DNA of 53,933 nt, taken from Aliihoeflea sp. 40Bstr573 (GTDB lineage Bacteria; Pseudomonadota; Alphaproteobacteria; Rhizobiales; Rhizobiaceae). The stretch is from contig NZ_JAAAMH010000019.1 of assembly GCF_024105655.1 (NCBI RefSeq), positions 1-53,933 of the forward strand, given 5' to 3'. The notes under the pieces are model-generated. The model had not been told where the DNA came from. It worked only from the letters and a program-made list of their open reading frames with translations, and ran no database searches. Made by a program: the position numbers and the translations under genes. Positions 7,717 to 38,676 of the stretch are shown piece after piece; within the stretch, counting starts at the first letter, position 1; each line of letters begins with the position of its first letter.

Positions 7717-8597
7717 CAGACCCTCTCCTGCATGGCGCGCACGCGCAGCAGGCCGTCGGGCCGCACCACCAGGATGACGAATACCAATCCGAACAGGAAG
7801 GCTTCGCGGAACGGCCGCAAGTCGGCAGGCAGGACTGCGTCGAGCAGCACCGAAATGGCACCGACGACGAAGCCTCCGAGAGCGGCGCCGGGCAGGCTGC
7901 CCAGTCCTCCCAGAATCGTCGCAACGAAGCCGATGATCAGGGGACGGACGCCCATGGCCGGACTGAGCTGTCCGATCTGCGCCGAATAGATCAGTGAGAC
8001 GATCCAGGCCAGCACGGCGCTCATGACGAATGCGAATGCGATGACCCGATTGACCTTGACGCCGGACAGCCGTGCCGTGACCACGTCCTCGGCGGCTGCG
8101 CGCAGCTGGATTCCGAGAGCCGTGCGCTTCAGCAGCGCGGCGACACCGGCCAGCGCGATGATCATCAGCCCGAGCGAGACGAATTGGAGCAGCGGCAGGC
8201 GCAGCCCTGCAACCTCGATGGTTTCGGCAAGTACAGGCGCGAAGGTGAATGGCAGCGGGCGCGCACCGAAGATCATCACCGTCAGGTTCTGCAGGAAGTA
8301 GGAAACGGCGAAGGACGCAACCAGGAGGCTCGCAGGATCCTGACCGCGCAAGGGGCGGAAAGCGGTCTGCTCGATCAGCAGCGCCAGCGCGATGATGAAG
8401 GCCAGCGACAGCACGATCACCAGCGGCCCCGGGAGCGTCGCCAGCAAACCGATGGCGTAGCCGCCGGCCATCACCACTTCACCATGGGCGAAGTTGATCA
8501 GCCGCATGATGCCGAAGATGAGGCCGATACCCAGCGCCATCATGGCGTAGAGTCCGCCGATGTTGATCGCGTCGAGGATGTATTGGAGGGCGATCAA
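7716..8597 (-). CDS. livH: Branched-chain amino acid-type ABC permease (LivH)
   Basis: Second permease of the importer, 293 residues, with LivH signatures LYAMMALGIGLIFGIMRLIN, FAHGEVVMAGGYAI and the coupling loop RAAAEDVVTARLSGVKV. It starts with TTG at 8597. The TTG overlaps the stop of the fused ATPase gene as TTGA, a coupled start with a rare initiation codon. A GGAGG lies further downstream inside the frame, so a later start is not excluded. It pairs with LivM in the inner membrane. Confidence 0.88.
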   Translation of the reverse strand: MIALQYILDAINIGGLYAMMALGIGLIFGIMRLINFAHGEVVMAGGYAIGLLATLPGPLVIVLSLAFIIALALLIEQTAFRPLRGQDPASLLVASFAVSYFLQNLTVMIFGARPLPFTFAPVLAETIEVAGLRLPLLQFVSLGLMIIALAGVAALLKRTALGIQLRAAAEDVVTARLSGVKVNRVIAFAFVMSAVLAWIVSLIYSAQIGQLSPAMGVRPLIIGFVATILGGLGSLPGAALGGFVVGAISVLLDAVLPADLRPFREAFLFGLVFVILVVRPDGLLRVRAMQERV

Positions 8598-10126
8598 TTG
8601 GTGACGACCCCCTCGCGTGTGTCGAAGCCGAAATAGGCACGGTCGAACGCCGGGTCGACCCGCAGAGCGTCGGCCTGACCATCGAGTTCCACCGTGCCGT
8701 GACGAAGCACATAGGCACGGTCGGCGGCCATCAGCGCCCGATTGGCATTCTGTTCCATCAGCAGGATCGTAAGACCGCCCTCGCTCAGCGCGGACAGGGT
8801 CTCATAGACGCTATCGATCATTAGCGGCGCAAGGCCAAGCGACGGCTCGTCGAGGAGAAGCAGCTTCGGCTCCGCCAGAAGGGCGCGGGCGATGGCCAGT
8901 TGCTGCTGCTCGCCGCCCGACAACTTGCCGGCATAGCCCTTGAGCCGAGACCGGAGGACGGGGAAGCGCTCGAGCACGTCTTCGAAGCGCCTTGCAGCGT
9001 CCAGTTCCGAGCGGCGCGTGGTCTGGCCGATGCGCAGGTTCTCCTCGACCGTCAGGTTCGAAAGGATTCGCCGACCTTCCGGCACCAGCGCAATGCCCAT
9101 TTCGACGCGCGCCGCCGTCCGCTCGCTTGCAAGCGGACCACCGTTATAGGAGATCGTGCCGGAGCCGGCGCGGGTCAGACCTGCGATGGCCGACAGGAGC
9201 GTCGACTTGCCGGCGCCATTTGGGCCGATGACGGCAACGAATTCACCGTCGCCGACTGCTATCGAAACGTTCGAAAGGGCACGGACGGAGCCGTAGTCGA
9301 CGACCAGGTCCTCGATTTTCAGCAGCGGCGCGGTATCCTGGATGACCGTCGCTTGCACGCGCTCGCGAACGCGCGTGCCCGTCTGGTGGGTGGCGCCAAG
9401 ATAGGCTTCTCGCACCGTCTGGTCGGTCTGGACCTGTGTCGGACTTCCCTTCGAAATGGTCTTGCCGCGCGCCAAAACCTGGACACGGTCGCAGAGCTTC
9501 ATGATGAGCTGCATGTTGTGCTCGATGACCAGAATCCCGCAGTCATAGCGGTCGCGGATGGCAGTGATCCGGGTCAGGAGATCGGCTGCCTCCTGAGGGC
9601 TGAGGCCAGCTGCCGGTTCGTCGAGCAATAGGTAGCGCGGCGTTATCGCGAGCGCCCGTCCGATGCCGACAAGGCGCTGCTCGCCATAGGCAAGAGCGCT
9701 GGCCGTGACGTGTTGCCGTGCGGCGATGCCAAGGTAGTCCAGGATTTCTGCTGCACCATCGCGGGCCTGCGAACGCGACAGGCCGATCCCGACGCCCGCC
9801 ATTTCGACGTTTTCAAGGACCGTCATGTCGGGGAACAGCCGCGCGGCCTGAAAGGTGCGCCCGAGACCGCGGCGCGGGAACTGGTGCGGCGCCCAGCCGG
9901 TCGTCGGCTGGCCGTCGAGCTCAACGGTGCCCACGCTCGGCTCCTGAAAGCCGCTCAGGACGTTGACCAGCGTCGTCTTGCCGGCACCGTTCGGACCGAT
10001 CAGCCCGAGAATCTCTCCTCGAGCCAGGTCGAGATCAATCCCCTCGAGGGCGCGGAGGCCCTCGAAATGAACGCCGACGCCGCGCGCTGTCAATGAGTTG
10101 CGTGTGTCGCCGGCATTCCGTTCCAT
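8594..10126 (-). CDS. Fused double ABC ATPase (LivG-LivF in one chain)
   Basis: This 510-residue protein contains both ATPases of the Liv importer in a single polypeptide; normally livG and livF are separate genes of ~250 and ~235 codons. The first half has Walker A GPNGAGKTT near residues 44-52, a degenerate signature (AYGEQR) and Walker B LLLDEPAAGL. It resembles LivG, including the long ENVEMAGVG region. The second half has its own GPNGAGKST, a full LSGGEQQQLAIARAL signature and LLLDEPSLGLAPLM, as in LivF. The linker lies around residues 240-270 (RVRERVQATVIQDTAPLLK). It drives the LivHM channel. The ATG at 10126 follows the binding-protein stop by 23 bp. Confidence 0.92.
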   Translation of the reverse strand: MERNAGDTRNSLTARGVGVHFEGLRALEGIDLDLARGEILGLIGPNGAGKTTLVNVLSGFQEPSVGTVELDGQPTTGWAPHQFPRRGLGRTFQAARLFPDMTVLENVEMAGVGIGLSRSQARDGAAEILDYLGIAARQHVTASALAYGEQRLVGIGRALAITPRYLLLDEPAAGLSPQEAADLLTRITAIRDRYDCGILVIEHNMQLIMKLCDRVQVLARGKTISKGSPTQVQTDQTVREAYLGATHQTGTRVRERVQATVIQDTAPLLKIEDLVVDYGSVRALSNVSIAVGDGEFVAVIGPNGAGKSTLLSAIAGLTRAGSGTISYNGGPLASERTAARVEMGIALVPEGRRILSNLTVEENLRIGQTTRRSELDAARRFEDVLERFPVLRSRLKGYAGKLSGGEQQQLAIARALLAEPKLLLLDEPSLGLAPLMIDSVYETLSALSEGGLTILLMEQNANRALMAADRAYVLRHGTVELDGQADALRVDPAFDRAYFGFDTREGVVTN

Positions 10127-10149
10127 GGCCAGATCCTTTCCTGTCGCTC

Positions 10150-11319
10150 TCAGCGGCCTGGAATCTTCTCTGGGGCCCGCAGCTCGACGGCGCTGTGCTT
10201 GCCGTCCTGAACCTGCATGATGACCATGGGGCGCTCGAAGTTGATGTGGGTGTTCTCGTCGAAGCTGGTCGGACCCACCAGCAGCGGTTCGTCCTTGAAC
10301 TTCTCGAACTCCGCCTTGATTGCGTCGGACTCGATCGAGCCTGCCCGCTCGGCCGCGACCTTGATGCCCTGGATCACCGAGTAGCCGGTCAGCGTGTGGG
10401 CGGTCGAGGGATGATTGCCATGCAGGGCGGTGAAGTCATCGATGAACTTCTTGACGTCAGGACGCGGGTCGTCGCCGAAAATTGAGCCCATGGCCGCGAA
10501 GTAGAAGTTCGAAAGGTCGGGCACGCTCTCGAGCCAGTAGTCACCATCCATGTCCTCGCCCGAGAGGATGGGCATGGTGAGACCCGCAGTGCGCAGTTGC
10601 CTCAGAGCACCTGGGCCAGCCGGCGTGAGGGTCGAGAGCAGCAGGACGTCCGGCTGCGGGTCCAGCGCCTTGATGCGCGTGATGTGGGTGGCGATCGACG
10701 CGTCATCCATCGTGAATGTGTCGACACCGACCAGCGCGGCGTCGCCGTTCTGTTCCTTGAACCTCGCCTGAAACGCGGCGCTCACCGACAGATCGTACTG
10801 GATGGTTGTCTGCGTCAGCGCGTAGGCTGTCTTCCAGCCCTTCGCGGTCGCGAACTCGGCCAATACTGTCCCGACCGTGTCGCTGGCGGTCGAAAAGCTG
10901 AAAGCGTAGGGTCCGATCCCCTCGACGCCGAACTTCGGATCTGCAGCGAAGGGCGCGATGGCAACCTTGCCCTGACTGTTGGCGGTGCGCGCGGCGGTAC
11001 CGCCGAAGTCGAAGTCACCGGTTACGATCACGATGTCGGCGCCCTGGTCGAGCACTTCCATCGCCGCGACCGCGCCCTGCGGGATCTCGCTCTTGGTGTC
11101 GGCATAGATGAGCTTGAGGGGACGGCCGAGAACGCCGCCGCCTTCATTGATCTCGTTCACCGCCATTTCGGCAGCTTTGGCCGGATCGGCGTCATACGCT
11201 GCGATGAACCCCGTCTGGGCAATCGCTGCGCCGATAATGATGGGCTTGGTTTCCTGAGCTTGTGCAGCGGACACAAAGCCCGCCATCAGGATTGAACTCG
11301 CCAGATATCTCATTTTCAT
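10150..11319 (-). CDS. Periplasmic substrate-binding protein of Liv-type ABC importer (LivK-like)
   Basis: A 389-residue periplasmic binding protein of the leucine/amide-binding family. It starts with a Sec signal peptide (MKMRYLASSILMAGFVSAAQA, cleavage probably after AQA). The mature start ETKPIIIGAAIAQTGFIAAYD is typical, and the later blocks AVNEINEGGGVLGRPLKLIY and FYFAAMGSIFGDDPRP fit the fold. It is first of the transport genes, just downstream of the dehydrogenase gene and upstream of the fused ATPase, as expected of the most highly expressed component. Its ligand is unknown; hydantoins, N-carbamoyl amino acids or amides are likely from context. Confidence 0.88.
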   Translation of the reverse strand: MKMRYLASSILMAGFVSAAQAQETKPIIIGAAIAQTGFIAAYDADPAKAAEMAVNEINEGGGVLGRPLKLIYADTKSEIPQGAVAAMEVLDQGADIVIVTGDFDFGGTAARTANSQGKVAIAPFAADPKFGVEGIGPYAFSFSTASDTVGTVLAEFATAKGWKTAYALTQTTIQYDLSVSAAFQARFKEQNGDAALVGVDTFTMDDASIATHITRIKALDPQPDVLLLSTLTPAGPGALRQLRTAGLTMPILSGEDMDGDYWLESVPDLSNFYFAAMGSIFGDDPRPDVKKFIDDFTALHGNHPSTAHTLTGYSVIQGIKVAAERAGSIESDAIKAEFEKFKDEPLLVGPTSFDENTHINFERPMVIMQVQDGKHSAVELRAPEKIPGR

Positions 11320-11357
11320 TGTTCACCCCTTTTATTATTTGCTTGCCGAAAAACTCT

Positions 11358-12500
11358 TCATGCACGTCCGCTGCGCAGCCTGACCGGGGAAAGCGTTGCG
11401 CTGCCAACCCCCAGGGAGGCGATGTTTTCGGGCATCGATGCACCGGTGATCAGCGCGGCGGCGGCGCGCGCCAGGGCCGGCGAGGTCTGGATGCCGTAGC
11501 CACCCTGGGCGGCGAGCCAGAAGAAGCCTTCCACCTCGTCGTCGTAACCAACCACAGGCGTCTTGTCGGAGACGAAACTGCGTAGCCCGGCCCATTTGCG
11601 ATCGACAGAGCGCACGGTGAAATCGGCCGCCTGGCTTATCCGGTCGATGGCGATCGCGATGTCGATCTCTTCGGGCTGTGCATCGCAGGGCGCGGACGGG
11701 GTCTCGTCGGCAGGCGATCCCAGCAGCCTTCCGGCATCGGGCTTGAAGTAGAACTTCTCGGAAATGTCGATGACCGTCGGCCAGGCCTCGACCGGCTGCG
11801 GCGGGTCGAAGGAGAAGATGAAGGCGCTGCGGCGCTTCGGCAAAAGTCCGATAGGGCGCGCACCCGCGAGGCCCGCGATCTCGTCGGCCCATGCGCCGGC
11901 GGCGTTGACGACGGCCCCGGCGCCAATCGAGCCGGCGGATGTCTCCACCGTCCAGTCCCCGCCGCGGCTCCTTGCCAACCCCACGACTTCCGCGTTCTGG
12001 ACGACACGGGTCTTGCGCGACCGCGCCCCACGCAGGAAGCCCGAATGGATTGCGTGGACGTCCAGATCGCTGGACGTTTCCTCGAGCAGGCCACCATCGA
12101 CATAGTCGGCCCTCAGCATCGGCGCGCGTTGCAGCACTTCGGCCGCATCCAGCATCCGCAGCGTCGGCACCAGCAGGACAGCCTCATCATAAAGCGCTTG
12201 CAGTTCCGCTCGCTGGTCGCTGCACGCCACCATGATCAACGGCCGTGGCGTCGAGAGAGGGTGCTCGCTGAAGCCGGCGGGAGGATTGGCGAAGAACGAC
12301 CCACTGGCGACCGTTAGTGCCCGGATTGCGGCATTGCCGTAGATCTCGGTAAACACCGCCGCCGAACGCCCCGTCGAATGGTAACCCGGCTGATGCTCGC
12401 GCTCGACCAGCACGACCGAGGCGGTCTTGGACAGTTCGTAGGCGAGCGAAGCGCCCGCTATCCCGGCTCCAATGACGACGAAATCTACCCGCTCGATCAT
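11358..12500 (-). CDS. FAD-dependent D-amino acid dehydrogenase, DauA (D-arginine dehydrogenase)-like
   Basis: A 380-residue flavoprotein of the DAO family that should oxidise a D-amino acid to the 2-oxo (imino) acid. The N-terminus has the Rossmann motif VIGAGIAGASLAYELS followed by LVEREHQPGYHSTGRSAA. That block, and NPPAGFSEHPLSTPRPL, AGLAGARPIGLLPKRRSAF, FYFKPDAGRLLGSPAD and WAGLRSFV, closely match the D-arginine dehydrogenase DauA of Pseudomonas aeruginosa as I know it. The last of these carries a conserved Arg near the active site. No signal peptide is present. It lies between the regulator and the importer on the same strand, so its product probably feeds from the D-carbamoylase reaction. 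Two copies of a putative operator lie just upstream. Confidence 0.88.
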   Translation of the reverse strand: MIERVDFVVIGAGIAGASLAYELSKTASVVLVEREHQPGYHSTGRSAAVFTEIYGNAAIRALTVASGSFFANPPAGFSEHPLSTPRPLIMVACSDQRAELQALYDEAVLLVPTLRMLDAAEVLQRAPMLRADYVDGGLLEETSSDLDVHAIHSGFLRGARSRKTRVVQNAEVVGLARSRGGDWTVETSAGSIGAGAVVNAAGAWADEIAGLAGARPIGLLPKRRSAFIFSFDPPQPVEAWPTVIDISEKFYFKPDAGRLLGSPADETPSAPCDAQPEEIDIAIAIDRISQAADFTVRSVDRKWAGLRSFVSDKTPVVGYDDEVEGFFWLAAQGGYGIQTSPALARAAAALITGASMPENIASLGVGSATLSPVRLRSGRA

Positions 12501-12520
12501 GAACCGATCTGAACAGGGTT

Positions 12521-12535
12521 TTTCCTATGTGACAA
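12521..12535 (+). promoter_or_regulatory. Putative XRE/cupin operator, copy A1
   Basis: TTTCCTATGTGACAA lies 20 bp upstream of the dehydrogenase start. It matches three other non-coding copies (12542-12556 minus, 43717-43731, 44467-44481). Copies A1 and A2 face each other with centres 21 bp apart, about two helical turns, as expected for two dimers on one DNA face. Confidence 0.5.
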
Positions 12536-12541
12536 GCAGAA

Positions 12542-12556
12542 TTTTCATAAAGGAAA
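12542..12556 (-). promoter_or_regulatory. Putative XRE/cupin operator, copy A2
   Basis: Read on the minus strand this is TTTCCTTTATGAAAA, inverted relative to copy A1 with six bases between them. It lies between the regulator gene stop (12590) and the D-amino acid dehydrogenase start (12500). The regulator just upstream is the likely ligand-responsive binder; this is inference. Confidence 0.5.
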
Positions 12557-12589
12557 AAAATGAACTGCCAGCGAGCCAGGCCCTCGCCG

Positions 12590-13258
12590 CTACATCACCA
12601 GCCCGTCTGTCTCGCTGCCAACATGATTGCCTTCCCCGGGCAGCGGATGCCAGCAGACCACGATGAGCCGGGCTTCCACCGCGCCGGTGCTCAGGTATGC
12701 ATGACCGAGGCCGCTGTCGAAATACAGGCTATCGCCCGGCTCCAGCACGCGAGGCGGCTCGCCCTCGATCTGGAAGGTGAGCTGGCCGTCGAGCACGTAG
12801 ACGAACTCTTCGCCGGGATGGTTGATGAAGCGGGTGAATTCCTCGACGCTGTGTGCCTTGATCGTCGCAAAAACCGGCATCATGCGCTTGTGGGTGCGCG
12901 CAGAGCACAGCATGTCCATGATGTAATAGTCGTTCTCGACCGTTTGCGCCTGTCCCTTTCTCTCGACCGTCACGAACTGCGATAGGCCCGGAGACGGCTT
13001 ATCGCTCAGCAGTTCACTCATCTCCATGTCGAAGGCGTAGGCGAGCCGGAGGATACTGTCATAGGTGAGCGCGATCAGGCCACGCTCGGCCTTGGAGATC
13101 GTCGACAGCGCGAGGCCGCTCCGGGCGCTCAGCTCGGCCAGCGTCCAACCGGCTGCCTTGCGTATGCTGCGCACACGCTCCCCGAAACCTGCTCTCTCCC
13201 ATTGTGGTGATGACACGGCTTTGATCTCCCCGGAGATCGGCTCAGGAATTGTCGGCAT
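12590..13258 (-). CDS. XRE-family regulator with C-terminal cupin domain
   Basis: A 222-residue regulator with an HTH_3 DNA-binding domain near residues 25-80 (GFGERVRSIRKAAGWTLAEL, then SGLALSTISKAERG) and a cupin sensor domain near 135-205 (EEFVYVLDGQLTFQIEGE, LEPGDSLYFDSGLGHAYL). This architecture often controls amino acid, polyamine or sugar catabolism, with the cupin binding a small ligand. I chose ATG at 13258 (MPTIPEP). A longer frame adds a tail without clear homology. It heads the hydantoin operon on the same strand. It is a paralogue in design of the regulator at 43831-44460. The TTTCCT motif pairs just downstream are candidate binding sites. Confidence 0.88.
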   Translation of the reverse strand: MPTIPEPISGEIKAVSSPQWERAGFGERVRSIRKAAGWTLAELSARSGLALSTISKAERGLIALTYDSILRLAYAFDMEMSELLSDKPSPGLSQFVTVERKGQAQTVENDYYIMDMLCSARTHKRMMPVFATIKAHSVEEFTRFINHPGEEFVYVLDGQLTFQIEGEPPRVLEPGDSLYFDSGLGHAYLSTGAVEARLIVVCWHPLPGEGNHVGSETDGLVM

Positions 13259-13765
13259 GGTCTGCTTTCCCAGTCGGATTGTCCAATGCTGCGCGTCGGC
13301 TACGCGAAACAAGATGCCTCGACACAAGCTTGTTTAGCCGGACCCGCCCGGCGCGAAGGCGCTAACCAACGACACGTTCCAGTCGGGTTTGGCGCGCGTA
13401 TGAGATCGAGGCGCGAGACGAAGTCGCACCTTGGGCCTCGGAGATCAAGCGTTTAGGATCATTGCAGCGTGCGCGTCACGCTGACTGTGCCGGAGCGGCA
13501 CCGGGCTGTTTCAGGTCGGTATGTTGAGAGACGGACTGGCGAGTCAGCAAGCGCACATAGCGCCCGGATGCGATGGGGAAGCGCGAGTTCGCTTGTCGAA
13601 CTTGCGATGCCGCCCAGCGGGCGGCCAAGCCTGACTGCTGGGCGGTTTTCGCCGTTCCGTGTATCATTTGACATTCCTTTGACGGCTGTTTCACGTTCAG
13701 ACCACTCTCCAAAGGGCAATCTCTCCTGGCTTGCACGAGCAGGCCACCAAATCAGGGAGATTGAA
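13259..13765. other. Intergenic region, no gene supported
   Basis: About 500 bp separates the divergent regulator gene from the small secreted protein. Open frames here on both strands look like noise (Arg- and Ser-rich, no ribosome sites). The promoters of both flanking genes should lie here, but no clear pair of boxes is evident. Confidence 0.4.
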
Positions 13766-14164: not shown

Positions 14165-14469
14165 GGAGCATCGCGCCGGCTGGATATTTCCGCAGTGTCG
14201 TCAATAGGCGACGGGGAATGGATGGGTTGCTGGCAGCCATTTTTCGGGACTGCCATTCGCCTTTTCAATGCGCCTGTCGGCAAACGTCACCATAACCGCT
14301 GTTGATAAATACTCTGCCGCTCGCCCAGTTCCGAGTCTCGAAGACTCTCGTTCGCAGCCGCTCATCTCGCGCGTCAGTCGGTCGTCACAATCATCGGACC
14401 GAAGTTTTCGTTCAAAAAGGTGCTATTCTCTATCAGGCGCTTTACAATGATGCTTCTGGAGGTGCTGTC

Positions 14470-16227
14470 GTGGAGGCGACCAAGTCCCTCAAGATGTCTC
14501 TTCTGGGTCCATTCTCCCTGCTCGACGCGGAAGGACGGGAGATTGCGCCGCGTGGCCGCAAGGCGTGCGCCATTCTCGCCATGCTAGCGACGGGCCCGCA
14601 GGCCCGGCGCAGTCGTAAATGGCTGCAGGACCGGCTTTGGAGCGATCGCGACGGAGCACAAGGCGCCGCGAGCTTGCGACATGCGCTCTACGAGATACGC
14701 CAATCGCTGGGAGATCACCGGGACCTTCTTGAGGCCGACACCTTCGTTGTCAGCTTGGATACCACGCGCCTCCTGATCGATGTAAACCTGGACGACGCAT
14801 TGGAGCAATTTGCCGGCGAACCTCCAGAATTCCTGGAGGGCATAGATATCAGAGACGACGAATTCGAAGAATGGTTGCGCGAGCAGAGGGAGTACTGGCG
14901 CGACCGTTTGCGCGACAAGTCCCAGCGCGCCCGCGCCGAATTACGCCTGCATAGTGGCATCCACTCGGTTGCGGAGCTCGAGCCGTCCCGAACGGTATCG
15001 CTGCCGCAGACTGACGACTTTCTCGACACGATCATTGCGAGACTCAGTGACCCGGTTTTGCGGCGACTGGCTGTTGCAGTCTTGCCGTTCCAGAACAAGA
15101 CTGGCAACGCTGACTTGGCGTACTTCACGGATGGGTTGTCGGAAGACCTCGTTGAGCGCCTGTCGCGCGTGCGTTGGTTGCCGGTCATCGCTCGCAGTTC
15201 ATCGTTCACCGTCGCGGGCATCGCTAACAGTCACGCTACCATGTCGCAGCGGCTGGGGGCCCGTTACCTCATCGACGGAAGCGTCTCGATGCAGGGCGAC
15301 CGTTACGTATTGCGAGTCGATCTCAACAATGCTGAAGCCGGCGTCGTACTATCGTCCAGCACCTTCGATCTCCCAGTCGCCATCGATACAGATGCGCTTG
15401 AAGAAGTGCTGGCAGACATTGTCGGGCGCATAGAGACGAATATCGACTTTTGTGAACAGCGACGCGCCATAGAAGGCGCACGGCTAGGCAGTCCGTATGA
15501 CGAGCATGTCTGGCGGGGTCGCTGGCACCTGAACAAGTTGACCAGAAGAGATGCCGAGATCGCGCGGCACTACTTTGATCTTGCTTTGTTGACCAACCCA
15601 GAAGCTCCCGAGGCGTTGATCCAAAGTGGACTCTGGCACTTGTGGCATATCTGGACCCTTCGTGGCAGTCAGGAAGACGTCAAAACCATCATGCCGGACT
15701 TGAAGCGCGCGTATCAAGCTGACACGAGTGACGCACGCGGCTACACCTTGATGGCGATCGCACAGTCATGGTTGCGCAACCAGGAGCAGGCCATCGGCAA
15801 CCTGAGTCAGGCGATCGAGATCAATCCCAGCCTGGTCAAGGCCTATCAGCAAATCGGCACCTGCCATTATCTCGTCGACGAGCCCGAAAAGGCCATTCCG
15901 CATCTGGAGATGTCGATACGGCTCAGCCCGAGTGATCCGCACCTGTTCGTCTCCTTCGGCGAGCTTGCGATGGCGCATCTGATGCTCGGGCAGCACATCG
16001 AAGCCATGAATTTCGCGGCGCGTGCCCTCACATATCGACCGCACTACTGGTACGCGCACGTGGTGAGGCTCGCCTCGATCGAGCGGTCGGGCGATCGGGG
16101 CGCGCTGGAGGCGGCCCGCCGCGTCTTCGCGGATTCCGGCATCAGACTCACCGAGCGAGATTTCGAATGGGTACCGTTCAAGGACCAGAAATGGGTAGCA
16201 GAACTTAAGAGACACGCCGCGCTTTGA
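14470..16227 (+). CDS. Winged-helix (SARP/BTAD-type) regulator with TolB-like domain and TPR repeats
   Basis: A 585-residue probable transcription regulator. Residues ~8-100 form an OmpR/SARP-type DNA-binding winged helix (KMSLLGPFSLLDAEGREI, ASLRHALYEIRQSLGD). A helical BTAD-like region with EEWLREQREYWRDRL follows. A TolB/FlgO-like segment around residues 200-320 contains VAVLPFQNKTGNADLAYFTDGLSEDL and YLIDGSVSMQGDRYVLRVDL. The C-terminal ~220 residues are TPR repeats (AIGNLSQAIEINPSLVKAY and following). This layout is common in CadC- and adenylate-cyclase-like one-component regulators. The GTG at 14470 has GGAGG 7 bases upstream. An ATG at 14506 is the alternative. Its end overlaps or abuts the P450-peroxidase gene, so it probably controls or senses for that enzyme. 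The signal is unknown. Confidence 0.8.
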   Translation: MEATKSLKMSLLGPFSLLDAEGREIAPRGRKACAILAMLATGPQARRSRKWLQDRLWSDRDGAQGAASLRHALYEIRQSLGDHRDLLEADTFVVSLDTTRLLIDVNLDDALEQFAGEPPEFLEGIDIRDDEFEEWLREQREYWRDRLRDKSQRARAELRLHSGIHSVAELEPSRTVSLPQTDDFLDTIIARLSDPVLRRLAVAVLPFQNKTGNADLAYFTDGLSEDLVERLSRVRWLPVIARSSSFTVAGIANSHATMSQRLGARYLIDGSVSMQGDRYVLRVDLNNAEAGVVLSSSTFDLPVAIDTDALEEVLADIVGRIETNIDFCEQRRAIEGARLGSPYDEHVWRGRWHLNKLTRRDAEIARHYFDLALLTNPEAPEALIQSGLWHLWHIWTLRGSQEDVKTIMPDLKRAYQADTSDARGYTLMAIAQSWLRNQEQAIGNLSQAIEINPSLVKAYQQIGTCHYLVDEPEKAIPHLEMSIRLSPSDPHLFVSFGELAMAHLMLGQHIEAMNFAARALTYRPHYWYAHVVRLASIERSGDRGALEAARRVFADSGIRLTERDFEWVPFKDQKWVAELKRHAAL

Positions 16228-16271
16228 TTGCAGAGGCAGCCAGTCGGCAGCCATCATCTCGGGAGGGGTCA

Positions 16272-19200
16272 TTGGCTTCGAAATACGATGGGGGCGTCAA
16301 AGACGAAATAAGGCAGATCAAGGAACTGCAGGCTGACGCCACGTTCGATTTCGAACGCATCGTTGCCAGCCGGCTCGGCGCCATGGGTGGGGTGCTGATA
16401 GCGGCCTATCTGCGGTTAGCCGCCGCGATCGCCCGAAGAACCGGACTTGGACGGTTTCCCCTGATCCCGTTTACGATTCTTGCCAGCAAGAAGGAGGTCG
16501 CGGCGGCGTTCAGCAAGGCACAGATATTCTCGGTTCCTTTCGGCCCGGAGATGCAAGCCTTGGCTGGACCGGTGACTTTCGCCCTCGGCCTCGATGACGA
16601 CGAGCATCGGCGGCAGCGAGAGGTGATGGCGAGCTTTACCGCGAAGGATCCGATAACCCACGATCAGGCGGCATTGGACCGAATCCGCATGATGACCAAC
16701 GCAATCCTGGATGATTGCGGCGGGCGGATCGACGTTGTCAGCGAGTTGTTCGTTCCGGTCATCTCGAAGACCTGCATTCGCCATTTCGGATTGAAGTGCA
16801 AGGATCCTGTGGCATTCGCGCAGTGGAACATGGCGGTCAGCTACCAACTGTTCGGTAGACCGCAAGGCTCTTCCGAAGACGAACTCGAGTTGGTGGCCGC
16901 AGCATCCCGGAACCTCAACAGCTGCATCGAAGCATCGATGGAGGCCAAGATCGCAGAGCTGAGGGCAGCGCACGCGACTTCCGATACGACACTGATCGGG
17001 CATCTCTTCGGTCTGCGTGATCCGGGTCATACTCTGCATGATGGGACCGTGTTGGCCAGCTATCTCACTGATGACAGGATCAGGGCTATCATGGCCGGCA
17101 TGTCGAGCGGCTTCGTGCCAACGACAATCCTGGCCGCCGGCAATTTGCTCACCGCGCTCGTCGGCAGACGCCAGAGGTACGGGGCGCTTGCCCACGCCGC
17201 GGCGGCAGGCGATCGCGCAGCCGTGCGCGATATCGTGATGGAGGCGGCGCGGTTCCGGCCCGCCGGCGCCCCCGGCCATTTCAGGGTGGTGACCAAAGAC
17301 TTCCAGTTCCCAGGTTCTGGCCAGAGGGCTCGCCGTTTTCAGGCAGGAGAACTCGTTCTGCTCGCCACTGGCGCAGCCATGATGGATGTCTCCGCGCGCA
17401 AGGACCCCCACGACTTCAAGCCCGGGTGCCCGGCCAAGCCAAACTTCATGTTCGGCCACGACCATCATTCCTGTCTCGGCAGAGACATGGCAACGGATGT
17501 CATTACCGAGATTTTTCTTGCCCTCTTCGCGCGGCCCGGTCTGGCACGCAGATCGCTTCTCATGCGGCGCGCCGGGCCCTTCCCGTGGCATTTCCACATG
17601 GCGTTCGACCCGCCCGTAGCGCCACAGCAGTCAATGTTGACGATTGCTGTTCCCCTTGACCCCGCGGCCACGAAGAGGATCGATGAGCTGCTCAAGACAA
17701 GCTTCGGCAATCCGGCTCATCGAGGCACGCCTATGCACGATGCGCTTGAGGCCACCGGCATTGTCCACAATGCCACCATGTGCATTGCCTGGCTGACCAG
17801 CGAGGGACACAAGCGACCAACACTGCTCTTCGAACTAAACGCCGACGGAACACCTGAGCAGATCTACGCGGCGCTCGAAAAACACGCACCGTCGGACCTG
17901 GGGAACCTCATGACCCTCGCGGGGAAGAAGTCTGGCGTGGGACTGCCGACCTTTCTGGCGCGCCATCAGGTCAGGCTGCACGCCAAGCCGTGGAACAACA
18001 TTGGCCTCAACTTCAACGGCCTCGGCGATTTTTCAGTCCGACAGATCGCGGAAGAGCAGAAGCTGTATGAGGCGGTCGCGCCAATCGTCCACGACGCGGC
18101 CGCGAGAAACCTCACAGTTGGTGACATGGCCGACGTAACGATCGAAAAAGTGCGAGATCTCATGTGCGGCGATCGCCCTCCTTTCCGCTCCGGTGACATG
18201 GAGACAGGTGGCAGCCCCGAAGTGGAAGGACCTGCCGAGCAGAATCTTGCAGCGCTGCGCTCACTGGAGCCCCTCTTGTACCGCCCGCCGGGACGCGTTC
18301 CGAAGATAGCCGATCACACCGATAAGTCGCTCGCCACCGCCATCCTGACCCATATCAAGCGGCCGAAGCAGCTACTGATCATGTCTGCGCCCTTGTGGCT
18401 GGCCATCATTGCCGCATTCTCAGCGTTCCACCTTGGATGGCGACCGGCCGAACCAGCAAGCGCGCTGTCAAACCTGATTTCCTTCCTCGCGGTGTTCACT
18501 GCGCTCCTCATTTCTATGGTTGTCGTTGTCGTGCTTGCCGTTGCCGCACTGGTGGCTCTGCTCCGGCATAGGGAGCGCACCGATACGGAAGATCTGAATC
18601 TCACGCCGCCGGATGAGGTCGCGACGATCGAAGCCTATGAAGATAATCCTGGCTGGATTCAGAACCAGATGACCTCGGTCAACACACTCAAGCCCGGGCG
18701 CTTGCGCATCTGCTTGCTCGCGCTCGCCTTGTTCGGGATCGGATGGCAGGTTCGCCATTGGTTTAGGTCGGGGTTCGTCGTCGATATCGGCACGATCCGG
18801 CACGCGAAATGGTTTCGGGTGAAAGGTACTGACCAACTGGTCTTTCAGGCCAATTTTGACGGGAGCTGGGAGGCCTACTTGGAGGATTTCGCCAACAAGG
18901 CTTACCGAGGACAAAATGCCGTATGGAGCCATTGTGAAGGCTTCATAAGGACGCGCTTCATGGTCCTGGACGGTGCTCGCAACGCCGACCAGTTCAAGCG
19001 TTGGGTGCGCGGCAAGCAAATCGTCACGCCGTTCTGGTACAGCCGCTTTCCCGAACTGTCCAACACGCAAATCCGCATCAACGCTCTGGTGCGCGACGGG
19101 TTGGCGAAGGCTCGGACGCAGTCCGAGGCGCGCGCCTGGATCAGCTTCTTTGGATCGAAGCCTCGGCCGGGAACCTCGTTGGAGACGGACGAAATCCAGT

Positions 19201-20819
19201 CCCTCATCTTCAACGCGCAGAAATGTCTAAAGCATTCCGCATGCATAGCCCTGCAGTTCACCGGCGACAAAAACGACGCACGCTTGATGGTAGAACGCCG
19301 CAGGTTTGTCAGCATGCTGGCAGGAAAGGTCGCGCCGGCGACCCAACGGTGGGCGGAAGAGCAGAATTTGCCCCACCAGACCGATATCCCCGCGGTGGGT
19401 TTCGGCGACGTGCAGTATGAGAAGGATGCGCTGTTCGTTGCTTTCTCCCATGAGGGTCTGGCCCGCCTGGGATTGCAGGCGGCCAGACGTAATTTGGAAC
19501 TGGACAGCTTTTCGGCTGCATTCATCTCGGGAATGGGCGTGCGCGCGCGCGCGCTCGGCGACGAAGGCAAGAATTCGCCCGATGGCTGGGACTGGTACGA
19601 CCGACGGGAAGGAGACCCCGATGATGGTCGCACGGACATGCTTCTTCTGCCTATGGCCAGGAATGCCGACGAACTCCAAGGGCTCATCCGTGCGTTAAGT
19701 GCTGCATGGAGCGACTGCGCCGTCAGCGTCGCCAAAGTAATGACCGGGCTGGTCGAACCTGACGGCACAACCTGCGACAGGGGGAACGGACATGTCAGTG
19801 ATCCACTCGGCTTCAAGGACGGTATCTCTCAGCCTGTGTTGAGGGGAACTTTTCGATCCACGCTTCCAGCTCCTTGGCACGACCGTGTCGAGCCTGGCGA
19901 AATCATCCTGGGCTACCGCGACAATCGTGATGTCTTCCCGCCCAGCCCGAGCATCGCGGCCGCTCGCGATCCTGCGGCCGAACTGCCGGAATTGCCCGAG
20001 CGGATGCCGCACACCTATCCCGCCTTTGGCGTAGGAAATGATGCGCTGCGCGATCTCGGGCGCAACGGCACCTACATTGCTGTCCGCCAGATCGAGCTCG
20101 ATGAAAGGGGCTTTAATCGACAGCTGGATGAGAAAGCGCAAGCTCTGGGCAACCTCATCACAGCTCCGGCACTCGCGGCAAAGATCATGGGGCGCTGGCG
20201 CAACGGGGCGCCGTTGGTTCGCTACCCGGCGACGGGACGGGCAGGCTCTTACGATCGGCACGAGGACGGCTTTCTCTATGGCCAGGAAGACCCGCAAGGA
20301 ATCCGGTGCCCCTTCGGCTCGCACATACGTCGGGCAAACCCACGCGATTCCTTCGGTCCGAATACAAAGGTGGAGATGGAAATCACCAACAGACACCGCA
20401 TCCTGCGCCGCGGGCGCAGCTATCGCGGTGTCGATCTGAGGGATGGTCGCGCCCAAGTTCCCGCTGGCGACGGCGAAGGGCCGGAAGCGACAGACGGGCC
20501 TGCAGAAGGCCTCTTGTTCATCGCGATGAACGCCAGCATCGAGCGGCAGTTCGAATTCGTCCAACAGACTTGGATCAACGCGTCAAGCTTCCACGGACTA
20601 CGCAACGAACCTGACCCGCTGCTCCATTCCGGCGAAGTCGGCAGTTTCACCATTCCCACCGCCAATGGACCAGTGGTGTTGACCGGCCTGTCGACCTTTG
20701 CCCGGGTTCGCGGCGGCGGGTACTTTTTCATGCCGGGCAGGTCTTTGCTTCGTTTCCTTGGAGACAATGCCAAGCTGGTCCCGCGCTCCGAGAACTCAAT
20801 GAAGATGCGCCGGGCCTGA
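16272..20819 (+). CDS. Giant cytochrome P450 - DyP-type peroxidase fusion with membrane segments
   Basis: About 1515 residues, far larger than either family alone. Residues ~30-460 are a P450: ExxR as E324-A-A-R327, and a heme loop FMFGHDHHSCLGRDMA with the thiolate Cys401. The I-helix reads AGMSSGFVPTT and lacks the usual acid-Thr pair. Next come two related alpha/beta segments, TLLFELNADG (~517) and QLVFQANFDG (~855). They flank hydrophobic helices near 700-722, 733-760 and 809-828. The C-terminal ~430 residues are a DyP peroxidase: GFKDG with Asp1183, probable proximal His1351 in FGSHIRRANPRD, and arginines at 1376-1380. TTG at 16272 has GGGAGGGG upstream; an earlier in-frame TTG at 16224 overlaps the regulator stop (TTGA). 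The two heme centres could pass a peroxide or radical intermediate; the reaction is unknown. Confidence 0.88.
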   Translation: MASKYDGGVKDEIRQIKELQADATFDFERIVASRLGAMGGVLIAAYLRLAAAIARRTGLGRFPLIPFTILASKKEVAAAFSKAQIFSVPFGPEMQALAGPVTFALGLDDDEHRRQREVMASFTAKDPITHDQAALDRIRMMTNAILDDCGGRIDVVSELFVPVISKTCIRHFGLKCKDPVAFAQWNMAVSYQLFGRPQGSSEDELELVAAASRNLNSCIEASMEAKIAELRAAHATSDTTLIGHLFGLRDPGHTLHDGTVLASYLTDDRIRAIMAGMSSGFVPTTILAAGNLLTALVGRRQRYGALAHAAAAGDRAAVRDIVMEAARFRPAGAPGHFRVVTKDFQFPGSGQRARRFQAGELVLLATGAAMMDVSARKDPHDFKPGCPAKPNFMFGHDHHSCLGRDMATDVITEIFLALFARPGLARRSLLMRRAGPFPWHFHMAFDPPVAPQQSMLTIAVPLDPAATKRIDELLKTSFGNPAHRGTPMHDALEATGIVHNATMCIAWLTSEGHKRPTLLFELNADGTPEQIYAALEKHAPSDLGNLMTLAGKKSGVGLPTFLARHQVRLHAKPWNNIGLNFNGLGDFSVRQIAEEQKLYEAVAPIVHDAAARNLTVGDMADVTIEKVRDLMCGDRPPFRSGDMETGGSPEVEGPAEQNLAALRSLEPLLYRPPGRVPKIADHTDKSLATAILTHIKRPKQLLIMSAPLWLAIIAAFSAFHLGWRPAEPASALSNLISFLAVFTALLISMVVVVVLAVAALVALLRHRERTDTEDLNLTPPDEVATIEAYEDNPGWIQNQMTSVNTLKPGRLRICLLALALFGIGWQVRHWFRSGFVVDIGTIRHAKWFRVKGTDQLVFQANFDGSWEAYLEDFANKAYRGQNAVWSHCEGFIRTRFMVLDGARNADQFKRWVRGKQIVTPFWYSRFPELSNTQIRINALVRDGLAKARTQSEARAWISFFGSKPRPGTSLETDEIQSLIFNAQKCLKHSACIALQFTGDKNDARLMVERRRFVSMLAGKVAPATQRWAEEQNLPHQTDIPAVGFGDVQYEKDALFVAFSHEGLARLGLQAARRNLELDSFSAAFISGMGVRARALGDEGKNSPDGWDWYDRREGDPDDGRTDMLLLPMARNADELQGLIRALSAAWSDCAVSVAKVMTGLVEPDGTTCDRGNGHVSDPLGFKDGISQPVLRGTFRSTLPAPWHDRVEPGEIILGYRDNRDVFPPSPSIAAARDPAAELPELPERMPHTYPAFGVGNDALRDLGRNGTYIAVRQIELDERGFNRQLDEKAQALGNLITAPALAAKIMGRWRNGAPLVRYPATGRAGSYDRHEDGFLYGQEDPQGIRCPFGSHIRRANPRDSFGPNTKVEMEITNRHRILRRGRSYRGVDLRDGRAQVPAGDGEGPEATDGPAEGLLFIAMNASIERQFEFVQQTWINASSFHGLRNEPDPLLHSGEVGSFTIPTANGPVVLTGLSTFARVRGGGYFFMPGRSLLRFLGDNAKLVPRSENSMKMRRA

Positions 20820-20844
20820 ACGGATCACCGGAGGCATGTCATTG

Positions 20845-21744
20845 ATGCGGCAAGGTGCGCCGCTAGGGAGCAATCGCCATGCGCTTCAAGCGCTGTTCAT
20901 TCATTCGGCCCGCTGTCATGACGGGCTGATGCTTCAGGCAGGGCTGGCGCTGATCGCCGCGGCGCATCCGGACCTGACCGTCCTGACGCGCGACGTCGAG
21001 CTTCCGGTCACCGAAGCCGCACAGGCGTTGATCGCCCGGAACCGGCCGACCGAACTCTCCGGCATCCGGCTCGCAGCCGAGGTCTTTGCGCGGGAGCATT
21101 ACAAAGCCGACCTTGTCATCGTCGACGAGGCGCGGCGCTATGCCGTCGTCTGCGACGTCAAGCGGTCGATCGCTTCCTACAACGCCGCCAAGCTCTGGCG
21201 GCTGAAGGCGCCGCTTTTTGTCTGTGCCGTCGTCGCTCCGGACCTTCTGCGCACCCGTCACCAGATCGACGGGGGGCGGACCTACCATGCGGCCATCCTT
21301 GATCTGTCGGGTCAAGCGGAGCTTTCCGACCCGGATGTGTTCGGCATTAATGCTCTCGACGCCTTCCTGCGCATCGATGGGGCAGGGGCGGCGCTGCGAG
21401 ATCTGAAGCCCCGCTTCGGCGTTGCGGTGCAGGCGGTGCTGGTCGACCGTCTGCGGGCGGCGTATCCGACACCCATCGCCCGAGTTCAGAGATGGACGCC
21501 GCGACGGCTGCCAATCGCGATGACGGGCCTGACGACGTCGTGGCCGATGTTGGCGGAGCTGATCGACGCTAAAACCGGCATCGATGCGGACACGGTCCTG
21601 AGCGCCGCGGCAACCTACCCGATGGACCTCGCGGCCCTGACGCGCGACGGCTTCATGTCGGCGGCGAGGTCGCCGGCCTCTTCTGTCTGGGCTATCCATT
21701 CCACCCGCCGGCCAAGCCGGATCATTTGCGCACGGCGCATCTGA
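20845..21744 (+). CDS. Unknown protein with possible PD-(D/E)XK nuclease-like core, 3' end fused to a scar
   Basis: About 300 residues. The central part KADLVIVDEARRYAVVCDVKR has the spacing of a PD-(D/E)XK nuclease core (Asp, then D-V-K after a hydrophobic strand), but I would not claim catalysis. The N-terminal half (SARCHDGLMLQAGLALIAAA, LTRDVELPVTEAAQALI) is well-formed protein. After about DLAALTRDGF (~21650) the frame turns Ser/Arg-rich because it runs out of frame through a hydrolase remnant, so the native C-terminus seems lost. GGAGG at 20830-20834 best serves TTG 20842 or ATG 20845. It follows the P450-peroxidase gene by ~25 bp and may be cotranscribed. Confidence 0.5.
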   Translation: MRQGAPLGSNRHALQALFIHSARCHDGLMLQAGLALIAAAHPDLTVLTRDVELPVTEAAQALIARNRPTELSGIRLAAEVFAREHYKADLVIVDEARRYAVVCDVKRSIASYNAAKLWRLKAPLFVCAVVAPDLLRTRHQIDGGRTYHAAILDLSGQAELSDPDVFGINALDAFLRIDGAGAALRDLKPRFGVAVQAVLVDRLRAAYPTPIARVQRWTPRRLPIAMTGLTTSWPMLAELIDAKTGIDADTVLSAAATYPMDLAALTRDGFMSAARSPASSVWAIHSTRRPSRIICARRI

Positions 21745-37086: not shown

Positions 37087-37182
37087 ACGGTAGCGGCGGG
37101 ATTGTCCGGCTGCGGGCGGCGTAAAAGTCGTCCACTTTTTCCCTTTTCTGCGTGGCGTAGGGAGGGAATAGGGATCTACACC

Positions 37183-38676
37183 GTGGAATTATATCTGAAG
37201 GTTCGCGTGGCTTGCGACGGAGGCATGAGCCAGCGCGAGGCAGCAAGGCATTTCGGCATCTCGCGCGACACGGTTCGCAAGATGATGGCGTATTCGGTTC
37301 CGCCGGGCTATCGGCGGCAGGCTCCGGTTCGGCGTCCGAAGCTGGACGCGTTCATCGCGGTCATCGATCGGTGGCTTGATGCGGACCGTGCGGTCCCGCG
37401 CAAGCAGCGCCATACGGCCAAGCGGGTGTTCGACCGGCTGCGCGACGAGCACGGGTTTGCCGGCGGCTACACGATCATCAAGGACTATATGCGCAAGCGG
37501 GATCTGCGCGGCCAGGAGATGTTCGTGCCGCTGGCGCACCCGGCGGGGCACGCACAGGCCGACTTCGGGGAGGCTGTCGTTGTCATCGGCGGCGTTGAGC
37601 AGAAGGCGCACTTCTTCGTGCTCGATCTGCCGCACAGCGATGCCTGCTATGTGCGCGCCTATCCTGCGGCGGTGGCCGAAGCGTGGGTGGACGGCCATAT
37701 CCATGCGTTCGCCTTCTTCGGCGCCGTGCCGCAGTCGATTGTCTACGACAACGACCGCTGCCTGGTGGCGAAGATCCTGCCCGACGGCACGCGCAAGCGG
37801 GCAACGCTGTTCAGCGGCTTCCTGTCCCACTATCTGATCCGGGATCGTTACGGCCGCCCCGGCAAGGGCAATGACAAGGGCAGCGTCGAAGGTCTGGTCG
37901 GCTATGTGCGCCGCAACTTCATGGTGCCGATTCCGCACTTTGCATCGTGGGACGAGTTCAATCTGTGGCTCGAGGAGCAGTGCCGCAAGCGCCAGGGTGA
38001 CCGGCTGCGCGGCGAGAGCGAGACGATCGGCGAACGCTTGCTGCGCGATCTGGTGGCGATGCGCCCACTGCCGGCATCACCCTTCGATGCTTGCGACCAT
38101 GCCAGCGGTCGGGTCACTTCGCAGGCGCTGGTGCGCTACAGGACCAACGACTACTCCGTCCCGGTCGCCTACGGCCACCAGGACGTCTGGATCCGTGGCT
38201 ATGTCGGCGAGGTGGTGATTGGCTGTGGCGGGGGGATCATTGCCCGTCATCCGCGCAGCTATGAGCGCGAGGAGGTTGTCTTCGATCCACTGCATTACCT
38301 GCCGCTGATCGAGCAGAAGATCAACGCGCTCGACCAGGCGGCACCGCTACAGGGCTGGGAATTGCCGGAGGCGTTCACGACACTGCGCCGCCTCATGGAA
38401 GCACGGATGGGCAAGCAGGGCCGGCGCGCCTATGTGCAGGTGCTGCGCCTGATGGAAAGCTTCGATCTGGCCGATCTGCACGCAGCCGTGAAGCAGGCGC
38501 TGCATCTGGGCGCCATCAGCTTCGACGCCGTGAAGCACCTCGTCCTGTGCCGGGCCGAACGCAGGCCACCAAAGCTGGACCTCGACATCTATCCCTATCT
38601 GCCCAGAGCCACTGTCGAGAAGACGTCGGCCAAGGCCTATATGCGCCTGCTGGACCGTAAGGAGGAACCGGCATGA
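37183..38676 (+). CDS. istA: IS21-family transposase IstA
   Basis: The DDE transposase of the element, ~498 residues. The N-terminal HTH is SQREAARHFGISRDTVRKMM. The rve catalytic core has Asp in HAQADFGEAVVV, Asp in SIVYDNDRCLVA and Glu in GNDKGSVEGLVGYVRRNF. Homologues usually start three codons earlier as MYTVELYLKVR, but here that codon is ATC. The nearest standard start is GTG 37183, and the open frame continues upstream to 37102. It overlaps istB as ATGA. Confidence 0.92.
   Translation: MELYLKVRVACDGGMSQREAARHFGISRDTVRKMMAYSVPPGYRRQAPVRRPKLDAFIAVIDRWLDADRAVPRKQRHTAKRVFDRLRDEHGFAGGYTIIKDYMRKRDLRGQEMFVPLAHPAGHAQADFGEAVVVIGGVEQKAHFFVLDLPHSDACYVRAYPAAVAEAWVDGHIHAFAFFGAVPQSIVYDNDRCLVAKILPDGTRKRATLFSGFLSHYLIRDRYGRPGKGNDKGSVEGLVGYVRRNFMVPIPHFASWDEFNLWLEEQCRKRQGDRLRGESETIGERLLRDLVAMRPLPASPFDACDHASGRVTSQALVRYRTNDYSVPVAYGHQDVWIRGYVGEVVIGCGGGIIARHPRSYEREEVVFDPLHYLPLIEQKINALDQAAPLQGWELPEAFTTLRRLMEARMGKQGRRAYVQVLRLMESFDLADLHAAVKQALHLGAISFDAVKHLVLCRAERRPPKLDLDIYPYLPRATVEKTSAKAYMRLLDRKEEPA

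Follow-up and report, generated by a model that had tools for sequence, protein, structure and literature searches.

In Aliihoeflea sp. 40Bstr573 (Alphaproteobacteria), the 53,933-nt stretch of contig NZ_JAAAMH010000019.1 analysed here (termed the window, at its whole length) carries a gene whose product joins a cytochrome P450 to a DyP-type peroxidase, with a predicted membrane hairpin in between, and immediately 5′ of it on the same strand a gene for a TolB/TPR regulator, its partner. Judged by comparison of homologues, the two-heme P450–DyP fusion is a real, conserved family, and by analogy it appears to be a bacterial equivalent, so far undescribed, of the fungal enzymes behind oxidised-lipid signals. 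It is very probable that the cassette of fusion and partner is a functional unit. The whole reading, in which a peroxide-using, lipid-directed two-heme oxidase is combined with signalling, has about an even chance of being right, and any exact reaction has less.

The P450, the second of two ferredoxin-like domains and the DyP are in one frame and in the same order in 79 of the best 80 named-genome loci (L029–L108, out of 201 relatives). The ranking of these loci was by full-length match, so the set is no census of fused versus unfused forms. The one locus without a single frame, L040, has the fusion in two open reading frames (ORFs) at a contig start; contig ends truncate L091 N-terminally and L105 C-terminally, and in a few of the 80 the first ferredoxin-like domain was unmatched by BLAST. 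A preliminary description of this DNA had called for such a search of homologues for the P450–DyP order, and feared that the join might be seen only here as an assembly artefact. It is not, though split versions also exist. Nor did the other outcome feared there, loss of heme binding in either domain, show up, the heme ligands being conserved. The hosts are 78 Alphaproteobacteria (70 Hyphomicrobiales, 7 Sphingomonadales and 1 unplaced), 1 Betaproteobacterium and 1 Gammaproteobacterium.

Among 60 relative genomes, full fusions are present in five (G023, G025, G029, G034 and G036, the last with two copies; the G023 and G036 contigs are identical to L031 and L032), and in G051 and G059 the P450 and DyP are neighbouring genes. 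The fusion is absent from 4/4 same-genus genomes searched, which gave weak P450 matches only. In a class-wide sample of 289 genomes, 12 have a match to the C-terminal two-thirds of the fusion at E 1e-20, and one match from this sample (L128, G281) is full-length with an internal stop. With phylum-wide sampling 28 of 397 match, of which seven, the window's own included, are full-length in a frame of at least 1428 codons; one of the seven frames carries an internal TGA. Plasmid records matched number 89, and the region was opened in twelve.

No report of a bacterial P450–DyP fusion was found in open-licence literature, judged by titles and abstract starts and with preprints outside the scope, which agrees with the earlier statement that no characterised protein of such architecture is known. 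By term look-up, fusion, fused and peroxidase are absent from alphaproteobacterial and proteobacterial P450 surveys (PMC8197338, PMC9148083), as are P450 and fusion from a DyP review (PMC8197335).

The fungal DOX-CYP enzymes (PpoA / linoleate diol synthase, CYP6001–6005) differ from the fusion in that their peroxidase half is of the peroxidase-cyclooxygenase superfamily whereas that of the window is a DyP, and in order, the fungal peroxidase being first and the P450 being N-terminal in the window and the 79 one-frame loci. We know of no membrane hairpin and no dedicated regulator gene in the fungal case. The likeness, as far as passages of PMC13049297 describe the fungal enzymes, is of a peroxidase-type heme enzyme and a heme-thiolate P450 that works without a redox partner in one chain, with an HxCxG cysteine pocket to compare with HSCLG in the window; the fungal P450 is self-sufficient and acts on a hydroperoxide. 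The fusion would work like a DOX-CYP but is not a member of that group, since peroxidase superfamily and order differ. The contrast of order and fold with fungal psi-factor oxygenases that had been drawn at the outset holds for the fungal enzymes themselves. As a general contrast in order it is weakened by bacterial fusions that are DyP-first and by oomycete CYP5619, in which the P450 is first and a heme peroxidase/dioxygenase C-terminal (PMC5919972). CYP5619 is eukaryotic, however; its second half is termed heme peroxidase/dioxygenase, DyP is unmentioned in that article by term look-up, and no paired signalling gene comes up in the passages covered (PMC5919972).

The heme domains and the membrane hairpin

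Residues are numbered here from TTG 16224, and the numbers in the preliminary description are lower by 16. The features of the fusion gene are as follows.

16224–20819, + strand: fusion ORF, 1531 codons from TTG 16224
16261..16268, + strand: candidate ribosome-binding site for the 16272 start, GGGAGGGG, from the sequence
16272..20819, + strand: P450–DyP membrane fusion protein, 1515 residues from TTG 16272, a start that agrees with the homologues' beginnings
16401..17603, + strand: P450 domain, about residues 60–460 (Foldseek, profile)
17070..17162, + strand: P450 I helix, residues 283–313, GxxxGFVPTT (model; Pro-Thr invariant, no acid)
17472..17474, + strand: codon of heme-ligating Cys417 (formerly Cys401) in the FxxGxxxCxG loop
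17625..18143, + strand: first ferredoxin-like domain, about residues 468–640 (strand-helix-strand-strand-helix order in both models)
18363..18581, + strand: predicted two-helix membrane hairpin, residues 714–786 (A4 model; hydropathy)
18660..19178, + strand: second ferredoxin-like domain with conserved motif NFDGSWEAYLEDF, about residues 813–985 (A4 model)
19179..20768, + strand: DyP peroxidase domain (Foldseek, profile)
19818..19820, + strand: codon of distal Asp1199 (formerly Asp1183) in GFKDG
20322..20324, + strand: codon of proximal His1367 (formerly His1351)

Two AlphaFold2 models, built on 41-sequence alignments with the protein folded in two parts, give the domain order as P450, ferredoxin-like, two-helix membrane hairpin, second ferredoxin-like and DyP. 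Model A3 covers residues 17–700 (mean predicted local distance difference test, pLDDT, 86.1) and A4 residues 468–1531 (mean pLDDT 79.6, predicted template-modelling score, pTM, 0.74). The label ‘ferredoxin-like’ is a reading of strand and helix order, not a database match. Both halves of the protein stand as originally proposed. Foldseek places the A3 model with P450s (best match E 5.2e-13, TMt 0.73) and the A4 model with DyPs, the best match being D. radiodurans DyP 8re3 (E 3.9e-23, TMt 0.74); the corresponding profile comparisons are to EryK (E 5.9e-34) and to the same D. radiodurans DyP (E 6.5e-78). Taken alone, the window protein scores under the Pfam cut-offs for both halves (p450 14.9 against 22.8 bits, DyP_N 16 against 27.5, Dyp_perox_C 12.8 against 20), and for that reason an annotation pipeline could miss the fusion.

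Counted over the window protein and 79 homologues, the heme-loop cysteine is present in 80/80, as are both residues of the K-helix ExxR, E340 and R343. In the DyP half the GFKDG aspartate is kept in 79/80, with Glu in L093, and the proximal histidine in 79/79, one sequence ending earlier. Candidates for the distal arginine are R1390 and R1395, each in 79/79, and R1392, in 78/79. The D. radiodurans enzyme (8re2/8re3) is the nearest solved DyP, with 27% identity in the structural alignment; its chain of 442–445 residues differs in being without P450 or hairpin. An_peroxidase has no match in the window protein at E 1.

The I helix, mostly GxxxGFxPT[N/T], has P299 and T300 in 79/79, and the residue preceding the proline is V, I, G, A or T in all 79. 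In the profile alignment to EryK, which is set on the upstream glycine, the proline occupies the site of the catalytic threonine. Aligned instead with the Asp-Thr of G066 and the Glu-Thr of Methylorubrum, it occupies the site of the acid and the threonine is kept. The acid–alcohol pair of O2-dependent P450 monooxygenases is lacking, as the acid is missing in both registers. CYP152 peroxygenases (OleT, P450BSbeta) are stand-alone enzymes in which Arg245 has its role at the acid–alcohol pair, followed by Pro. They differ from the fusion family in having Arg-Pro at that site rather than V/I/G/A/T-Pro-Thr. They resemble it in that P450 peroxygenases, according to passages of an article that mentions Arg245, are peroxide-using heme-thiolate enzymes also without the acid–alcohol pair (PMC10988616).

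Ferredoxin-like patterns within 5 kb (in ORFs of 45–180 residues) occur at 9/79 loci versus 19/79 in a reversed-sequence control. The fusion thus has no recurring ferredoxin neighbour, although one encoded farther away could still act with it. As a positive control, the pattern did detect the ferredoxin in the operon of Methylorubrum. That operon holds an FAD oxidoreductase as well, and its P450 keeps Glu-Thr.

Membrane helices, also claimed earlier, are predicted in the model at about residues 714–738 and 747–786, and hydropathy gives two hydrophobic membrane windows in 76 of the 80 sequences. In 80/80 the density of positive charges is higher outside the hairpin loop than in it, and an N-terminal hydrophobic segment or twin-arginine (Tat) pattern is found in 0/80. 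From the charge distribution and the missing N-terminal segment, the P450 and DyP domains probably both face the cytoplasm, with the hairpin holding them at the membrane.

The partner gene and its two kinds of output

Three features describe the partner.

14302..16227, + strand: SARP/EmbR-type winged helix – TolB-like – TPR protein, 641 codons from TTG 14302; the true start is uncertain, perhaps nearer 14470
14482..14721, + strand: winged-helix DNA-binding domain, approximate (profile of 15 homologues)
15529..16056, + strand: TPR region, approximate (Pfam TPR_1, 44.8 bits, and TPR_2 over cut-off)

The fusion had been described as directly downstream of, or overlapping, a winged-helix/TolB/TPR regulator. 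Adjacency stands, as the partner ends 44 nt before the 16272 start; the genes overlap only if 16224 is the start. The regulator description holds for the window: besides the TPRs, the N-terminus matches EmbR in a profile of 15 homologues (E 1.7e-5; AfsR 0.002, ToxR-type activator 0.002), though the single-sequence Pfam match there (Trans_reg_C) reaches no better than E 0.032. The middle part we take to be TolB-like. The description does not extend to the family, since a cyclase stands in place of the winged helix in 54/80 loci. HilA/EilA- and SARP-type regulators likewise have a winged helix and TPRs, though the match to the HilA/EilA NCBIfam model is far under cut-off, and the Novosphingobium orthologue is annotated ‘SARP family’. 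The partner differs from them in being paired with a heme enzyme and in the replacement of its winged helix by a class III cyclase in a sister clade.

A check for the adjacent regulator across homologues, also recommended at the outset, finds it next door almost without exception. Gene picking places a partner homologue at −1 on the same strand in 74 of 79 fusion loci and BLAST adds L042 and L046, making 76/79. L065 and L091 have no upstream sequence, so the partner adjoins 76 of the 77 loci that do. No more than 139 bp separate partner and fusion, save for 297 bp in L045, and some of the ORFs overlap. In Sulfitobacter a TPR protein is upstream of the fusion, and the G635 and G553 fusions likewise come after TPR proteins, of 553 and 583 residues.

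In six aligned partners the C-terminal half aligns throughout and the N-terminal half is of two kinds. Of the 80 loci, 17 share the window's winged helix as output half and 54 have a class III cyclase there; the L036 partner matches both queries, and L034 (cut by a contig start) and L066 match neither. Guanylate_cyc is over the Pfam cut-off in the three cyclase-type partners scanned, and all three class III sequence patterns are present in 44 of 55 partners (the 54 and L036), the rest having fewer. In a tree of 45 rows, one well-supported branch separates the winged-helix type from the cyclase type. PF00211 copies number none in the window's genome and two each in G025, G029 and G034, where one of the two is the partner. 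By our own arithmetic, chance adjacency would be of the order of one in a thousand per genome.

A convergent gene is at +1 in 55 of 79 loci, and in the one member scanned (L043) it is of the CRP family, with PF00027 and PF13545 over cut-off. A CRP search with a single query at E 1e-4, which remote CRPs could escape, matched at 53 of the 54 cyclase-type loci; the match of L050 is distant (23%), leaving an adjacent CRP in 52/54, and L090, the other miss, has 1.1 kb downstream. For winged-helix loci the same search gives an adjacent CRP in 0/17, and in 0/13 of those with at least 2 kb downstream. Independent annotations read cyclase / fusion / Crp-Fnr in Pararhizobium qamdonense, and SARP regulator / fusion in Novosphingobium pNL2, where the genes listed within 6 kb include no CRP. 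[Further 3′, clusters at +2 and +3 are each present in 14 loci; those scanned (L062:15544–20737) are a 1225-residue subtilase and a protein of the metallo-beta-lactamase fold.]

Relatives with other arrangements

Beyond the fusion set, 20 contexts of relatives were compared, picked as strong matches or long frames and with near-identical islands counted once. (The neighbours of L128, of G281, and of L133, of G318, and weaker matches such as G331, G151, G442:C15, G498, G524, G520, G598, G628 and G560 fall outside the 20.) A P450 is fused to the DyP or at most two genes away in 12 of them, in both orders: G051, G059, G066, G136, G188, G201, G215, G348, G442, G555, Skermanella and Methylorubrum. 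Fusions with the DyP first are those of G136, G201, G215 and G442. The P450 halves of G136, G201 and G442 were uncalled by Pfam and were read from the heme-loop cysteine, and among the DyP-first fusions ExxR is visible only in G136 and G215. In G051 the two genes may be a formerly joined one interrupted by a stop (a TAG is counted). No P450 was seen among annotated genes or scanned ORFs in the other eight: G272, G406, G638, Sphingobium/Shinella, Terrarubrum, Sphingomonas, Sinorhizobium and the Rhizobium pair L113/L114. Translations show the segment between P450 and DyP as a separate gene in Skermanella, G406 and G638, so the fused gene may have arisen when a P450 was added to a membrane-protein/DyP pair that already existed.

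A cyclase-AAA-TPR protein adjoins four of the 12 differently organised P450 and DyP loci (G051, G136, G201 and G555). As these genomes have 4, 4, 12 and 18 PF00211 matches respectively, the cyclase link is suggestive for G051 and G136 and weaker for G201 and G555. An enzyme of lipid type adjoins or is fused to the DyP in five of the 20 contexts. These are an LCAT-like neighbour in G066, a patatin 0.8 kb away in G215, a GDSL-like domain in the DyP chain itself in G442 (27.0 bits, under the 32.9 cut-off), a thioesterase and a patatin in Sphingomonas AAP5, and, divergent from the DyP in Sphingobium/Shinella, an oleate hydratase, a 3-hydroxyacyl-CoA dehydrogenase and a thioesterase.

Several individual loci are of separate interest. 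L126:713–3733, L125:5688–9614 and L127:6926–10531, in other Alphaproteobacteria, have the fungal order of DyP first and P450 last, and two of the three adjoin cyclase-AAA-TPR proteins. L158:392–5152 is a 1587-residue chain of ferredoxin-like, DyP and P450-like parts (the latter with a Cys loop and no clear ExxR) and a GDSL-like C-terminus under the Pfam cut-off. Plasmids of Sphingobium cloacae and Shinella (L163, L164) have a common island of a catalase-family gene, a small hypothetical protein and the DyP, divergent from the oleate hydratase, 3-hydroxyacyl-CoA dehydrogenase and thioesterase genes and a TetR gene. Near the DyP relative in G406 is a catalase-like protein with 28% identity to the Sphingobium ‘catalase family protein’ (E 4e-37); the DyP relative in G638 has an animal-type heme peroxidase (PF03098) close by. 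The surroundings of the DyP relatives L156 and L157 include a GMC oxidoreductase with a catalase-like gene, or an animal-type heme peroxidase of 1008 residues. Those of the Rhizobium plasmids L113 and L114 and of L130, with no P450 seen near, adjoin endonuclease-type genes, and in L113/L114 heparin lyase or CHAT proteins are also near; this neighbourhood hints at another use of the same pair.

Possible roles of the cassette

In the mechanism that we favour, the membrane-anchored two-heme oxidase would be the enzymatic side of a signalling cassette dedicated to it. Its P450 would be driven by a peroxide in place of O2 and a ferredoxin, acting as peroxygenase or hydroperoxide isomerase, and the DyP would make, use or remove the same kind of peroxide. 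The substrate would be hydrophobic, most likely a fatty acyl chain, and the oxidised lipid may be passed from one heme site to the other. The TolB/TPR part of the partner would sense the product, the substrate or the state of the enzyme, with output by direct DNA binding, as in the window, or by a change of cyclic nucleotide read by the neighbouring CRP protein.

In its favour count the one-frame architecture with heme ligands kept in both halves, the partner next door, the tie between cyclase-type partner and CRP, the bringing together of P450 and DyP in further contexts and in both orders, lipid-type enzymes near some DyP relatives, the acid-free I helix, the want of a recurring ferredoxin and the charge pattern of the hairpin. 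Architecture, ligands, adjacency and the exchange of output halves are shown, whereas the substrate, the use of peroxide, how the two hemes are coupled and which way the signal runs are inferred, as are, from context, the oxylipin chemistry and sensing role suggested at the outset. Several points weigh against this mechanism. EryK, the best profile match, likewise lacks the acid in the I helix (AGHIT) yet is named a hydroxylase, so the missing acid is no proof of peroxide use. The nearest solved relative of the peroxidase half, D. radiodurans DyP, was reported to be inactive at physiological pH (PMC10820274). The lipid enzymes adjoin relatives of the DyP and not the window's own gene, and none was seen among annotated genes or scanned ORFs in 15 of the 20 contexts, which is a raw count. 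L041 is without a partner in 10 kb upstream, though a CRP is present, and the second G036 copy (L023) has none detected, its two upstream ORFs giving no Pfam matches when scanned. L050 has a cyclase partner and no adjacent CRP. Since the tree calls for a single switch of partner type (and for three changes in the CRP label), the correlation of cyclase and CRP is close to one event and is not used as repeated evidence; an independent-pairs test for the link cannot reach significance.

The strongest competitor, unlikely in our estimate but to be taken seriously, is detoxification, with the fusion removing lipid peroxides or xenobiotics and the TolB/TPR protein merely an inducer-sensing switch for its own operon. 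The short gap between the two genes suits it, as do the patchy presence of the fusion, including its absence from the four same-genus genomes, and the genes annotated as catalase or catalase family near DyP relatives in Methylorubrum, Sphingobium/Shinella, Terrarubrum and Sphingomonas. A cyclase with its own CRP, as at 52 of the 54 cyclase-type loci, exceeds what a local on-switch needs, though the CRP could act on the operon alone.

A bolder version of the favoured mechanism is an oxylipin-type relay, DyP-derived and independent of the fungal one, and as a whole it is somewhat improbable. Membrane fatty-acyl oxidation would proceed via a peroxide passed between the hemes, and the product would bind as ligand to a TolB/TPR sensor whose output can be exchanged (DNA binding or cyclic nucleotide and CRP); P450 and DyP would have been joined repeatedly, in both orders, because their reactions need coupling. 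If this is true, bacteria evolved fused peroxidase–P450 machines separately, out of a peroxidase of another fold, and many rhizobia and sphingomonads have them wired to cyclic-nucleotide or direct transcriptional signalling. The long-open question of the natural role of DyPs would then have a testable answer outside lignin, the P450s would be candidates for redox-partner-free enzymes, and oxidised lipids would be a possible bacterial signal with a named receptor.

A reading of the fusion as chiefly a heme-based sensor for redox state, peroxide or gas, with the partner as effector and catalysis secondary, is distinctly unlikely. The membrane anchor, and the near-invariant pairing with a protein of interchangeable output half, are what such a sensor might show, but catalytic residues are kept in both halves and relatives occur as separate enzymes beside other metabolic enzymes.

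Bacterial DyPs are usually read as enzymes of aromatic or lignin catabolism. The DyP fold itself, and an FAA hydrolase and an AMP-binding enzyme downstream in the window, fit that reading; those two neighbours, however, are on the opposite strand, and their families are not among the seven neighbour-cluster representatives scanned. A hairpin that points the domains to the cytoplasm, with the export signal missing throughout, is a poor fit to a polymer substrate, and it was for lack of an export signal that this role was dropped as first choice; we consider it very improbable. The chance of an assembly artefact or decayed gene, for which nothing speaks beyond the sub-threshold single-sequence Pfam scores, is negligible, as the one-frame homologues rule out the former and the conserved ligands a decayed heme domain, with third-position GC (0.71 versus 0.63 and 0.47) adding weak support.

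Other genes of the window include, 16 bp past the fusion on the + strand, a 302-residue ORF (20836–21744) with no Pfam match at cut-off. On the − strand at 8594–13327 are an FAD-dependent oxidoreductase (DAO) and an HTH-cupin regulator, with ABC transporter and periplasmic-binding-protein genes next to them. A protein with a Mu-type transposase C-terminal domain, encoded at 37102–38676 on the + strand, marks a possible mobile element.

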